In this document: piece by piece, positions 4,253-11,682 of the stretch
How the letters are laid out: each line of letters opens with the position of its first letter
Numbering within the stretch: position 1 is the stretch's first letter
DNA from: an uncultured Spirochaetota bacterium
GTDB lineage: Bacteria; Spirochaetota; UBA4802; UBA5550
Reading direction: 5' to 3'
Assembly (NCBI GenBank): GCA_937872225.1
Contig: CALMRZ010000017.1
Location: forward strand, 94,325 to 158,324
DNA: 64,000 bases
Made by a program: the position numbers and the translations under genes
Notes under the pieces: generated by a model
What the model was told of the DNA's origin: nothing
Seen by the model: only the letters and a program-made list of their open reading frames with translations
Database searches by the model: none

Positions 4253-5602
4253 TTAACTTTTCAGTTCAATAATAAGATCGTTGATAAGCTCTTTAAATTC
4301 AGGATCGTTATTCATGTCTTCCATGATTTTATTACAGGCATTGATAACCGTTGAATGGTCCCTGTCGCCAAATTCCTTTCCAATATCGGTAGTCGTCATG
4401 CCCGCAAGGTCACGGGCAAGATACATGCCGATGAATCTGGGCTGAATGATCCTGCTGTGCCTGCTTTTTGACTTCAGGTCTTCCTGGGATACGTCAAACT
4501 TTTCCGATACTTTGTTTATGATGTCCCCGATTGATACCATTTTATTGGAATCAACATCAAACAGTTCTTTAAGATGAAGTTTTACCATATCTATGGATAT
4601 CTCTTCCCTGGTGAACTGGGATATCATTTTCAGTTTACTGACAGCGGCTTCGAGGGCCCTGATATTGGATTTGATCCTGCGGGCTATATAATTAAAAGCT
4701 TCATCGGAAATGACCAGTTTTTCCTTTTCAGCCTTGTCCCTCAGGATGGCCTCGCGGGTTTCAAGGTTCGGTGCCTGTATATCCGTTATCATTCCCCATT
4801 CAAAACGTGTGCGCAGACGGTCAGCCAGTGTCGCTATCTGTTTCGGCGGCCGATCGCTGGAGATGACGATCTGCTTCTTGTTTCCGTGAAGCGAGTTGAA
4901 GACCTGAAAAAATTCATTCTGGGTCTCTTCCTTGTTTTCAAGAAACTGAATATCGTCTATTAACAGGATATCCACATGGCGGTATTTTATCTGGAAGCTT
5001 TCCTGGGTCCTGTTTCTGATGGCATTAATGAATTCCGTTATGAAATCGCCGGTTGATACGAATAGGACCTTTAAATACGGTTTTTCATGGTTAATATAAT
5101 TGCCGATGGCCTGCAACAGGTGTGTTTTGCCCAAACCGGTGGATCCGTAAATAAACAGGGGATTAACTTGAGTTCCGGGAGCCTGTGACACGGAATAGGC
5201 TGCAGCATGGGCATACTGGTTATTGGGCCCAATGACAAAATTCTCAAAGGTATATTTTGGGTTTAAGGTGGATTCTGTCGACATCGGTTCTCTCTTGAAA
5301 TATGATGTAGTGGGCATGGCCTGGGAGCCGTTACTGTTCTGAGATTGTTCGGTTCCTGACCCATTTGAAGTGACAAATTCACATATATAATGCAGTCCGG
5401 TGATTTCCTTTAGTTTCAGTGAAATCTGGTTTAGATACTGCTCGGAAATATGCCTTTTTGTCACCTCGTCAATAACTTTAATCTTGAGTGTATTTTCAGA
5501 AATAGACAGCGGCTCAGTATCTTTCAACCACATATTGAAGGATTGCTTGTTAACACTGGATTCCAGTGAATGCAACACGCTATTCCATAATTCTCTGGGC
5601 AC
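4253..5602 (-). CDS. dnaA: Chromosomal replication initiator DnaA
   Basis: AAA+ initiator that binds oriC and opens the duplex. Walker A is GSTGLGKTH, Walker B is DILLIDDIQF, and the C-terminal DNA-binding domain IV carries the signature GDRDHSTVINACNKI. Domain II is a short, polar Ser/Gln/Asn-rich linker. I chose the GTG at 5602 because GAGGGG lies six bases upstream and the protein then opens PRELWNSVLHSLE, the normal domain I start. A longer in-frame TTG start at 5626 would lie within a perfect DnaA box and has no ribosome-binding site. Length is 449 residues, typical for the family. Confidence 0.97.
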   Translation of the reverse strand: MPRELWNSVLHSLESSVNKQSFNMWLKDTEPLSISENTLKIKVIDEVTKRHISEQYLNQISLKLKEITGLHYICEFVTSNGSGTEQSQNSNGSQAMPTTSYFKREPMSTESTLNPKYTFENFVIGPNNQYAHAAAYSVSQAPGTQVNPLFIYGSTGLGKTHLLQAIGNYINHEKPYLKVLFVSTGDFITEFINAIRNRTQESFQIKYRHVDILLIDDIQFLENKEETQNEFFQVFNSLHGNKKQIVISSDRPPKQIATLADRLRTRFEWGMITDIQAPNLETREAILRDKAEKEKLVISDEAFNYIARRIKSNIRALEAAVSKLKMISQFTREEISIDMVKLHLKELFDVDSNKMVSIGDIINKVSEKFDVSQEDLKSKSRHSRIIQPRFIGMYLARDLAGMTTTDIGKEFGDRDHSTVINACNKIMEDMNNDPEFKELINDLIIELKS

Positions 5603-6104
5603 ACTTTCCCCCTCATTTATCCACAAATGTTAATAACCATGTGTATAAGTATATTAATGTTCAGTATTATAAATTTTATTAAACATTTATTTATTTCATA
5701 TAGTTTTATCAGAATAATTATTTTTATCAAAAAGTGATAAAAAGAAAAAAACAACGGGTATCACATACTGGATATTATGTCTTGTTAATAAAAAAGCAAA
5801 GTGTTTTTGGCAACCAATTAATTACATTAATTATTTGTGAAAAAAAATTTTTAGAAATTCTTGATAAATATCTCATAACCTGTTGATAACTGCAATTAAT
5901 TGTTAATAACTGCTTGATCATTTGTGAATAATGCAGGTAAATATGATTTATTGTTGATTATGAATTGCTGTAGGGTTACAATACCGTACGCCGATTGATC
6001 GATGGGGAATTTCACCTGCTCCCATGAATAGCTCCTCAATTTCTGGTCAATAAAGATAATTGATTGTATACTGTAAGTAGTTCTTTCGCATCACGGAATA
6101 GTAA
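5603..6104. other. oriC: Putative chromosomal replication origin (oriC)
   Basis: A 502-bp gene-free region upstream of dnaA. It holds a perfect TTATCCACA (plus strand, 5617-5625) and, on the complement strand, TTATACACA (5640-5648), TTATCAACA (5881-5889) and TTATTCACA (5923-5931). TTATTAACA occurs on the complement at 5628-5636, 5783-5791 and 5901-5909. The boxes at 5881, 5901 and 5923 share orientation and are spaced about two helical turns apart. The stretch from about 5650 to 5880 is very AT-rich with A and T runs and is a candidate unwinding element. The dnaA promoter must also lie here. The call rests on box clustering plus the dnaA-dnaN context. Confidence 0.8.
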
Positions 6105-8630: not shown

Positions 8631-8963
8631 ATGTCAGTCATCATCAAGGATATAAAAAAGAACAACAATGAAATAATACGCATTGAAGTATCGGAGTTCA
8701 AGGGACGGGAACTGATCAATGTGCGGATCTGGTACCAGGCAATAGACAGCGCCAGCGGAGATCTGGTTTTTAAGCCGACCCAGAAAGGTATCACTTTGAA
8801 TATCGCTGAATTCGAAGAATTGAAGGATGGTGTTGAAAAGCTTGGGAATTATATACAGGATCAGCTGACCGGCAAAAAACCGAAACAGCCCGGCGAGGAA
8901 AGCCCTGATAAGGAAAAAAAGGGAAAAAAAGAAAAAAGTGAAAAGGCGGAAGATGAAGAATAG
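8631..8963 (+). CDS. PC4/YdbC-like single-stranded DNA-binding protein with charged tail
   Basis: Residues 1-75 match the transcriptional coactivator PC4 / YdbC fold: EIIRIEVSEFKGRELINVRIWYQ followed by DLVFKPTQKGITLNIAEFEELKDGVEKL. This family forms dimers that bind single-stranded DNA or RNA. Residues 80-110 are a disordered-looking Lys/Glu tail with several KK clusters. An AAGGAG site precedes the ATG. It is the last gene of the four-gene plus-strand group that starts at 6105. A role in nucleic-acid binding near oriC is possible but not shown. Confidence 0.8.
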   Translation: MSVIIKDIKKNNNEIIRIEVSEFKGRELINVRIWYQAIDSASGDLVFKPTQKGITLNIAEFEELKDGVEKLGNYIQDQLTGKKPKQPGEESPDKEKKGKKEKSEKAEDEE

Positions 8964-9026: not shown

Positions 9027-10469
9027 CTATTCAAGATTGATCCGACCACCGTTATATAACTGCAGAATTATGCTTACGCACCGTATCCTGGCTTTGCTTA
9101 TTTGCATCTCATCATGAAGGATATTCGGATTAACAATTCCTTTGAGAACATCCTCAATCAAAATGCCTGCCTTGGAGGGGAGATGCCCCACCACGGAAGA
9201 TACGATCTTTTTGCTGATACCTTTCAGGGCCGTGGACAGGACAAACCAGCCGACTGAAAATAAAAGGTATTGATAATCATTCGGATTTGAGAAGGCGGAA
9301 AGAAGGTATTCGAGCCTGTCGTGATGCACGGGAATCCGCTTCATCTTTAATGCTCTGAAATTTGATAGGAATTCGCTCCGGGCTTTCATGATCTCTTCAA
9401 AGGTTTTCGCAGGATTGATTAATTCCTTGATGTCGGCTAGTTTCCGTTCAGATAGAGATTTTTTCAGCAGGGGCAGATAGATGTCGCTTTCTCTGGATAT
9501 CGCGGCTGCCATAACCGCGTCATCAGTTGTTGAAACGGCGGCATATAAAAGGTCCTGCGATTGGATATCCTCCAGCCATGCGCCGAATTTTTTTTTCGAT
9601 ACGACATCACCAGCCAGTGACAGTTGTACAATATGTTGAATATGCTTCAGCAGCCTGGAGTAGCTTACATCGATGCCTTTAGTGGCGATCATTAATAAAG
9701 ATTCTTCAATTGAATAGATGCCCCCGGCAATATCTCGTTTTGTTATCTTCAGGTGTTTATCTTTATTGTAGTGAATTACGTCGTTGATGATGTTCTGGGA
9801 CAACGCGTTTTTAATGATCCCTGACAATTCCGGGAACCCCTGGATCAAGAGGAAAATTTGATATGGCGTGAGGAGGTTTTTCTTTTGCAAATAGCTGATC
9901 AATGTCAAAAATTCCGGCCTTGCTACAGCGTTGAATAACAAAGAAATATCAGGCAACATCCATTGTGGGTTTGTGAAAAAGCTAATCACTTCATCCTCAA
10001 TAAATTGAGCTGATGAAGAAGGTTTTAAAGAATTAGAGAATAAACTAAAAAAATAAAATGGAATCAAAATATGGATACTTTTTTCTCCATCAGGGAACAT
10101 AAGCGATAAAACAATTTCTTTTAATTGATTTGTATAGATTGTCGTGCTGAGATTTTGTTCAAAAACCAGTAAGAATTTTTTTTTACAAATCATGTTCAAG
10201 GCAATAGGTGAATCATGAATCATACCGGCAAACAGCCCTGTTACCTTTCCAAATTCTTCCGGAGTAAAATTATCCATCGCCATATGGATGGCTGTTTCTC
10301 TTGATGATTCTTTCAATAAGATGGCGGCATGTACATGCATGGAAGGAACAGTGCAATCCATGACCGGTGAAAAAGCGACACTGTCTGCCCCGGTTGTGTC
10401 ACGCAGTAGGTGATCGATCTGAAAAAACAGAAGGTTGAGGATTATGGCTGATGCGTGATTGAAAAGCAT
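9027..10469 (-). CDS. Uncharacterised protein with a FliG C-terminal-like domain
   Basis: A 480-residue, largely alpha-helical protein without signal peptide. The first 380 residues are not recognised. The last 75 residues follow the pattern of the FliG C-terminal domain: STALKGISKKIVSSVV, a HLPSKAGILIEDVLKG segment, then EMQISKARIRCVSIILQLYNGG. They correspond to FliG's ALKG helix, the MSKRAA helix and the DVEEAQ helix ending in a Gly. FliG is the flagellar rotor protein that interacts with MotA. No flagellar gene lies nearby and the N-terminal FliF-binding domain is not obvious. The gene follows a SpoIIE phosphatase by 58 bp on the same strand. The similarity is by eye and could be coincidental. 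Confidence 0.5.
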   Translation of the reverse strand: MLFNHASAIILNLLFFQIDHLLRDTTGADSVAFSPVMDCTVPSMHVHAAILLKESSRETAIHMAMDNFTPEEFGKVTGLFAGMIHDSPIALNMICKKKFLLVFEQNLSTTIYTNQLKEIVLSLMFPDGEKSIHILIPFYFFSLFSNSLKPSSSAQFIEDEVISFFTNPQWMLPDISLLFNAVARPEFLTLISYLQKKNLLTPYQIFLLIQGFPELSGIIKNALSQNIINDVIHYNKDKHLKITKRDIAGGIYSIEESLLMIATKGIDVSYSRLLKHIQHIVQLSLAGDVVSKKKFGAWLEDIQSQDLLYAAVSTTDDAVMAAAISRESDIYLPLLKKSLSERKLADIKELINPAKTFEEIMKARSEFLSNFRALKMKRIPVHHDRLEYLLSAFSNPNDYQYLLFSVGWFVLSTALKGISKKIVSSVVGHLPSKAGILIEDVLKGIVNPNILHDEMQISKARIRCVSIILQLYNGGRINLE

Positions 10470-10527: not shown

Positions 10528-11682
10528 TTAAAATTCGATGTTAAGAAAGGCAATATCATCGACCCTGTTTTCAAGCGGAGAAAAAGATTTTATTTCATCG
10601 AGAAGAGCCTTGCAGAAGCTATCGCCGGTGACCGCGGTATGCTCGGACATGAATTTCGCCAGCCGGTTTTCACCGAATTCTTCTCCGTCATAGTTCTTTA
10701 ATTCGCTGATGCCGTCCGTGTAGAGGAGCAGTTTATCGCCGGGCTCCACGGGATGTTTTTTCTCTTCGTACACGGTATCCTTTGCCAGTCCGATGAAGAA
10801 ACCCTTGGTGTCAAGGGCGACGACCTGCTTTTTTGCCGCCCGATAGTACAGGGCCCTGGTATGGCCAGCATTGGAGTAAAGCAGCGTCTTGCTCTTGCTG
10901 TCATAAATAACAAAGAAGGCCGTTATGTACTGGGTATCCAGAAGGAGACCGGTCATCTGCTCGTTGACCGATTCGAACAGTTGATGGGTTGATCCGTAGC
11001 GTGATGAATAGATGCTGAAAATCATTTTAGCCATGGACATGACCAGCGCCGCCGGAATGCCGTGACCGGTAACGTCGGCTATGAGGAACCCGTACTTGTC
11101 ATCCGGAAGGGAATAACAATCGTAGAAATCGCCGCCGATATCTTCAATGGGAAGATAGCATCCGCTCACCTTTGGGTAAGGAACCATGGAAAAATTCTTC
11201 GGGATGATGAACTGCTGTATGCGCTTCGCAATATCGAGTTCTTTCTTTATCTGAATATTCTTTTCGTATAATTCGCTGTACACGCTTTTCAGACGAAGCA
11301 GCGACAGAACCCGGGCGGTAAGCTCCTTTTCATTAAGGGGTTTCAGAAGAAAATCATCGGCCCCGATCCTGAGGCCTTTTATCTTGGAATTGAGGTCGTC
11401 GGAACCGGTCATCAGGATGGCCGGGGTGAAATTGCTGCCGATGATATCTTTGAACTTGGCAAGGAAACCGAAGCCGTCGAGCTTCGGCATTATTATGTCG
11501 ACCAGCACGAGATCGTATTTTTTCTTCTTTAGAGCGTTGAGGCCGTCAATGCCGTCCACGGCCTCGTCTACCTGCATGTTCAATTCAGATAATGTCTTTT
11601 TAATAATAGCCCTGTTGAGTTTGCTATCGTCGATAACGAGGATATTCCATTCCAGGTTCAGGTAATCAAGATTTATTGTCAT
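10528..11682 (-). CDS. Response regulator with SpoIIE-type PP2C phosphatase domain
   Basis: Residues 13-130 form a receiver domain with acidic pair D18-D19, phospho-acceptor D62 (LVLVDIIMP) and conserved K113 in the LLKP segment. A coiled-coil linker near 140-165 leads to a PPM/SpoIIE phosphatase: GGDFYD, IADVTGHGIPAALVMS, LLLYTDGISE and a final RVDDIAFL, so the metal-binding Asp residues are present. Such RsbU-type proteins dephosphorylate STAS proteins in partner switching, here under control of a histidine kinase not encoded nearby. It lies upstream of the FliG-C-like gene on the same strand. Confidence 0.93.
   Translation of the reverse strand: MTINLDYLNLEWNILVIDDSKLNRAIIKKTLSELNMQVDEAVDGIDGLNALKKKKYDLVLVDIIMPKLDGFGFLAKFKDIIGSNFTPAILMTGSDDLNSKIKGLRIGADDFLLKPLNEKELTARVLSLLRLKSVYSELYEKNIQIKKELDIAKRIQQFIIPKNFSMVPYPKVSGCYLPIEDIGGDFYDCYSLPDDKYGFLIADVTGHGIPAALVMSMAKMIFSIYSSRYGSTHQLFESVNEQMTGLLLDTQYITAFFVIYDSKSKTLLYSNAGHTRALYYRAAKKQVVALDTKGFFIGLAKDTVYEEKKHPVEPGDKLLLYTDGISELKNYDGEEFGENRLAKFMSEHTAVTGDSFCKALLDEIKSFSPLENRVDDIAFLNIEF

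Follow-up and report, generated by a model that had tools for sequence, protein, structure and literature searches.

P0001, a FliG homologue with two tandem FliG C-like domains in part of the Spirochaetota

In the Salmonella C-ring, domain D3 of FliG binds the middle domain of FliM and the torque helix in D5 binds MotA/B (PMC11087270). Spirochaetes must coordinate motors at two cell poles by a mechanism that is unsettled, and FliG1 and FliG2 have different roles in Borrelia (PMC7225975). Our searches of the open-licence PMC literature returned no paper on a FliM-FliG fusion, and no relevant paper on FliG homolog/CheC architectures or on a 'FliG-like' protein in spirochetes. Folds of the CheC type bind CheY-type receivers. 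Here we describe P0001, a previously unnamed spirochaete protein that is most likely a FliG-derived cytoplasmic accessory protein in part of the flagellated Spirochaetota.

Reading frame and domain order of P0001

P0001 is encoded on the minus strand of the window, the whole stretch of 64,000 nucleotides analysed here, by a 480-aa ORF whose ATG lies at 10469 and whose stop ends at 9027. The plus-strand frame of the same interval is riddled with stops. A sequence-only reading of this DNA had given the coordinates 9027-10469 correctly and had left out the strand. Its start and length match those of most homologues in a 20-member alignment, and almost every one of the 38 family loci has an intact ORF that is similar in length. 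The features discussed below are the following.

9027..10469, minus strand: gene of P0001, a FliG-like orphan protein of 480 aa (ORF calls; start and length agree with homologues; dN/dS relative to the G004 orthologue about 0.17, a rough value with dS near saturation)
10020..10469, minus strand: N-terminal domain, residues 1-150, CheC/CheX/FliM-middle fold (predicted fold)
9678..9953, minus strand: FliG-type helical unit, residues ~173-264, FliG_M- or FliG_C-like (hhalign, model, family HMM)
9333..9596, minus strand: first FliG_C-like domain, residues 292-379 (predicted fold and PDB profile)
9030..9329, minus strand: second FliG_C-like domain, residues 381-480, which the sequence-only reading had picked out (fold, PDB profile, Pfam, conservation)
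9102..9131, minus strand: family-specific loop NPNILHDEMQ, residues 447-456 (conserved, predicted flexible)
10528..11682, minus strand: response-regulator plus SpoIIE-type (RsbU-like) phosphatase, upstream of the P0001 gene (Pfam Response_reg 9.2e-25, SpoIIE 8.1e-45)

The C-terminus had been described as following the FliG C-domain pattern, and this is borne out by profile search and by comparison of AlphaFold structures. P0001 alone scores below the curated Pfam cut-off for FliG_C of 23.3 bits (residues 396-479, E 0.0086, 16.8 bits); among 20 homologues, eight match FliG_C at E <= 0.1, the best at 1.5e-6. When a 30-member profile, made of 20 members and 10 distant ones from profile search, was compared with 177,635 PDB sequences, the top eight matches were all FliG, and the best of them, 1qc7_A, reached E 1.3e-6 over profile positions 397-482. 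In the AlphaFold model, residues 381-480 align with the FliG C domain of 4fhr_B with Z 13.9 and an rmsd of 1.9 Å over 92 residues (VIA-align). A FliG_C domain is thus present at the sequence level, via the family profile, and by fold. It is also the most conserved part of the protein: identity to the G004 orthologue is 69% over residues 381-480, 40% over 1-150, 60% over 151-290 and 43% over 291-380.

Conservation specific to the family sits in the stretches GWF.xSTALK and NPNIxHDExQI. In the loop NPNILHDEMQ, which is near-invariant within the main clade yet predicted flexible, N447, P448 and H452 are each kept in 19 of 20 members and E454 in all 20, and pLDDT is below 50 at residues 448-452. 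Since NPNIxHDExQI is among the best-conserved stretches and yet predicted to be flexible, we suggest that it is a putative binding site. The torque-face charges of FliG C are kept only in part across the family. The second C-like domain has K416 (19/20) and D440 (18/20), with a hydrophobic residue at the place of FliG R297 (E. coli numbering); in the first C-like domain, 28 of 30 members have S340 and 25 of 30 have R or K at position 342.

The N-terminal 380 residues had been judged unlike FliG. This was wrong for about half of them, as residues ~173-379 are FliG-like by hhalign, profile and model. Residues 292-379 of the predicted model align with 1qc7_B (Z 10.0, 2.4 Å, 86 residues), and positions 311-378 of the 30-member profile match 3hjl_A (E 6e-5) and 8ucs_H (E 5e-4) in the PDB. 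Predicted alone, residues 148-384 gave a model with pLDDT 86.9 and pTM 0.62 that aligns with FliG 104-322; its top 13 rows are all FliG with Z of 8.1-10.3, and the next row falls to 4.7. For the unit at ~173-264 the hhalign probability is 24.8 to FliG C and 9.4 to FliG M, and positions 192-382 of the family HMM align to residues 144-347 of the best-scoring true FliG. P0001 therefore contains two FliG C-like domains in tandem, preceded by another helical unit of the FliG type.

For residues 1-169 of the model, VIA rows 15-34 are all CheX, CheC, FliY or FliM with Z of 6.3-8.1, and the next unrelated row has Z 4.6; a VIA Z near 8 is the level at which the tool warns of a common arrangement, though the rows of this domain are uniform. 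The CheX-CheY complex 3hzh is also among the structure matches of P0001. Judged by predicted fold only, the first ~150-169 residues appear to adopt the FliM-middle/CheC/CheX fold. Kinship of this domain with FliM in sequence was considered and rejected, as hhalign gave a probability of 0.1 and the PDB profile search no match. Neither P0001 nor the 20 family members match SpoA or FliM_N in Pfam; P0001 begins with MLFNHASAI, and the true FliMs here begin with an LSQxEID/LSQxDID-type motif. The CheX-type motif ExxN, catalytic in CheX/CheC phosphatases of CheY-P, occurs within residues 56-105 in only two of 20 members and forms no conserved column.

The AlphaFold model of the whole chain, computed from the window protein and 14 homologues from named records, has pLDDT 88.7 and pTM 0.86. 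Its best Foldseek match is FliG 3hjl (2e-3), followed by CheC-like, FliG and FliM entries, and Foldseek alone gave no match at E <= 0.001. In a small sequence set, all 18 true spirochaete FliGs are recovered by the 30-member HMM at E <= 2e-4, and the best of 11 FliMs scores 0.016. In the reverse direction, a local FliG HMM reaches P0001 with only E 0.26 and the distant family members L088, L086 and L093 with 4.5e-6 to 2.7e-5. Matches of P0001 to NCBIfam cas1_HMARI (E 0.043) and to the thyrotropin receptor in the PDB (0.07-0.3) were taken as chance. By profile and fold, P0001 is homologous to FliG, and the chain looks like a FliM middle domain followed by a FliG without the FliF-binding N-domain, in one polypeptide.

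P0001 and its G004 orthologue share 52.5% identity (dN 0.376, dS 2.27), and the adjoining phosphatases share 88.8% (dN 0.072). The family is fast-evolving but under purifying selection.

Gene surroundings and distribution across the Spirochaetota

The gene order in the window is a gyrB-like start (assigned by eye), dnaN, dnaA, methyltransferase, NUDIX, GDSL lipase, PC4-like, the P0001 gene, the response-regulator/SpoIIE gene, radical SAM, orotidine decarboxylase, macro domain, MnmG and RsmG. The dnaA-dnaN pair marks the usual origin region, and many family members lie beside it. The PC4-like gene (8631-8963, plus strand, 5e-13) is a homologue of a transcriptional coactivator and is syntenic beside the phosphatase in relatives. 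As the sequence-only reading had noted, no flagellar gene lies nearby: the 12 neighbours scanned include none between dnaN and rsmG, nor any fliF or stator gene. Most other copies of the family likewise have no flagellar or chemotaxis genes near them.

That reading was also right that the gene follows a phosphatase of the RsbU type. The two genes lie on the same strand with a gap of 58 bp and are probably co-transcribed. Directly upstream placement on the same strand, with gaps of -4 to 58 bp, recurs in 10 of the 38 family loci; some of the remaining loci are truncated where their contig ends (e.g. L028, L189, L191). The phosphatase is found elsewhere in several family-positive genomes, and at four loci (L225, L227, L230, L231) it is kept beside PC4 where the family gene is absent. 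These four loci led us to reject an obligate pairing of the two. In another lineage a PAS-GGDEF gene adjoins the family gene (L095, by Pfam), and at L096 and L192 the neighbouring gene resembles it, as judged by sequence only.

A flagellar gene directly beside a family member was seen at one locus in 38. In the distant member L093 (6994-8412, minus strand), flgK follows 33 bp downstream, the only link to a flagellar operon that was seen. FlbF, the product of a Borrelia gene next to flgK, was considered as a name for this copy and was not adopted; the open-licence PMC literature yielded no paper on FlbF with flgK. A true fliG about 6 kb from the L187 member was judged a chance neighbour. At L091 an ORF of 544 aa (4340-5974, plus strand), with equivalents in L090 and L092, is separated from the family gene by about 1-2.4 kb. 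Its assignment as a further paralogue is unsupported (E 0.014-0.13 in a small set), and the L091 copy has no Pfam match.

The family is patchy across the Spirochaetota. A search of 59 genomes with P0001 as the query gave matches in 23, among them the genome of P0001 itself. Within its genus the family occurs in two of six genomes, and its absence from the other four shows that it is dispensable for a flagellum. Searched alone against the genome-contig set, P0001 found no relative, and an alignment in its place found 15. Profile A1 matches 33 of 296 genomes of the phylum. A wider profile matches 260 of 390 genomes, of which 34 are strong family genomes (E < 1e-20); matches at 1e-7 to 1e-4 are, judged by their position and size, true FliG ORFs, and were left out of the family count. 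Named records with the family are Spirochaetes, Spirochaetota or Spirochaetia MAGs, and one is titled only 'uncultured bacterium'.

In the matching draw, FliG_C occurs in 342 of the 390 genomes. All 34 strong family genomes are FliG-positive, and the family is missing from all 48 genomes that lack FliG. The hypergeometric value is 0.009, uncorrected for relatedness, and the test is weakened because the FliG-negative genomes listed belong mostly to one family. Of a set of 68 genomes, 65 had a FliG match and 62 a FliM match; the family-positive genomes G044 and G150, both 73% complete, have no FliG match there.

Proposed function and alternatives

We propose, with a probability of roughly 0.5, that P0001 is an accessory to the flagellar motor or its stator with a link to signalling. 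The suggested link to motility draws on the FliG homology and on the joint presence of the family and FliG in genomes. A motor-regulating or scaffold protein had been envisaged from the sequence before; the idea fits both of these lines and sits less well with the lack of flagellar neighbours at most members. P0001 would not be a rotor subunit, because it lacks FliG_N, and might instead dock reversibly on the motor. Its C-like domains would face the MotA stator or a neighbouring FliG, and its N-terminal domain FliM/FliG or a receiver domain. On signalling, the protein could then tune the motor through stator engagement, switching or braking, and in the lineage of the window the signal may arrive via the upstream response-regulator phosphatase. 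We prefer a reversible motor accessory under signalling control because P0001 resembles the FliM-middle and FliG partners joined in one chain without the FliF anchor. A bolder version, which we regard as unlikely, is a single-chain mimic of the switch module in some spirochaetes: a FliM/CheC-like signal reader joined to FliG-type units whose two C-like domains bind the stator would act as a clutch or brake on MotA or the C-ring, under control of the response-regulator phosphatase and by-passing the CheY-FliM route.

The main rival to a motor accessory, tentative but the best of the alternatives, is an adaptor or scaffold away from the motor that serves the response-regulator/SpoIIE phosphatase in partner switching or a stress response. 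Here the CheC-like domain would read a receiver, and the FliG C-like repeats would be helical protein-binding modules. The phosphatase directly upstream in about a quarter of the loci, the PAS-GGDEF neighbour, the rarity of flagellar neighbours and the receiver binding of CheC-like folds, with 3hzh among the matches, all point this way. However, phosphatase and gene each persist where the other is not beside it, and every strong family genome is FliG-positive.

A divergent FliG that forms a second switch ring or a rotor of another kind, and whose FliF-binding part comes from a different protein, is distinctly unlikely. The FliG-type units stand in FliG order behind a FliM-like domain in a single chain; such chains are possible, as a true FliM-FliG fusion occurs in another spirochaete (L168, described below), and spirochaetes do split FliG roles, as Borrelia does (PMC7225975). 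Against this, P0001 has no Pfam match to FliG_N and the families listed for 20 members do not include it, the SpoA domain and the N-terminal CheY-binding motif of FliM are missing too, presence is patchy, and the scanned neighbours include no fliF or stator gene. FliG_M likewise has no Pfam match in P0001 or the 20 members, where a FliG-type helical unit stands by fold and profile, and the EHPQ motif of FliG_M is absent from all 20 members and present in 18 of 18 true FliGs. The genome of P0001 also carries two full true FliGs, as separate genes, and a FliM; a search of it with PF01706 finds the two FliGs and not P0001. The earlier suggestion of a divergent second FliG is therefore rejected, as FliG_N and EHPQ are absent and two true FliGs are already present.

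We consider it very unlikely that P0001 is a factor for flagellar assembly or polar placement whose FliG-like surface binds nascent C-ring parts. FliG homology, the single flgK adjacency and the frequent position beside dnaA-dnaN agree with such a role, but the gene is absent from many flagellated relatives, including the four in its own genus. A decaying, functionless paralogue or a chance resemblance would fit the rapid divergence (the G004 orthologue is 53% identical, the phosphatase 89%) and the absence of the gene at the same locus in several relatives, but is disfavoured and highly improbable given the intact ORFs of similar length, purifying selection (dN 0.38, dS about 2.3) and significant family profile matches.

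As a motor accessory, P0001 would be an extra FliG-derived protein, found only in FliG-positive spirochaetes among the genomes examined and linked to signalling in some. It would then be a direct candidate for two-pole motor control.

Comparison with known systems

P0001 resembles FliG in its helical M/C-type units, with profile homology and a fold match for both C-like domains. It differs from FliG in lacking FliG_N and EHPQ, in having a second C-like domain and a CheC/FliM-like domain in front, and in coexisting with two FliGs. Residues 1-169 resemble the FliM middle domain, FliY, CheC and CheX in predicted fold, with the Z of 6.3-8.1 given above; unlike these proteins, P0001 has no detectable sequence homology to them, no FliM N-terminal motif, no SpoA and no conserved ExxN.

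The true FliM-FliG fusion is one ORF of 627 aa (L168:5626-7509, plus strand) in the spirochaete genome G055, which also has a separate FliG and FliM. It shares with P0001 a FliM middle domain followed by FliG M and C in a single chain. In the fusion, FliM (2.1e-65), FliG_M (1.8e-21) and FliG_C (5e-27) all exceed the Pfam cut-offs and there is one C domain, whereas P0001, with its two C-like domains, has diverged much further. We also observed FliG_C in the middle of two orphan proteins that have no Pfam match outside it, one of 518 aa (L171:5142-6698, plus strand, 2.1e-11) and one of 853 aa (L170:3209-5770, plus strand, 9.5e-10). The P0001 family shows that FliG C-type domains are re-used outside the canonical rotor, and the two orphans are other cases of FliG_C re-use in spirochaetes.

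FliG1/FliG2 pairs are known from spirochaetes with more than one FliG. Here both true FliGs are separate genes, and P0001 is additional to them.
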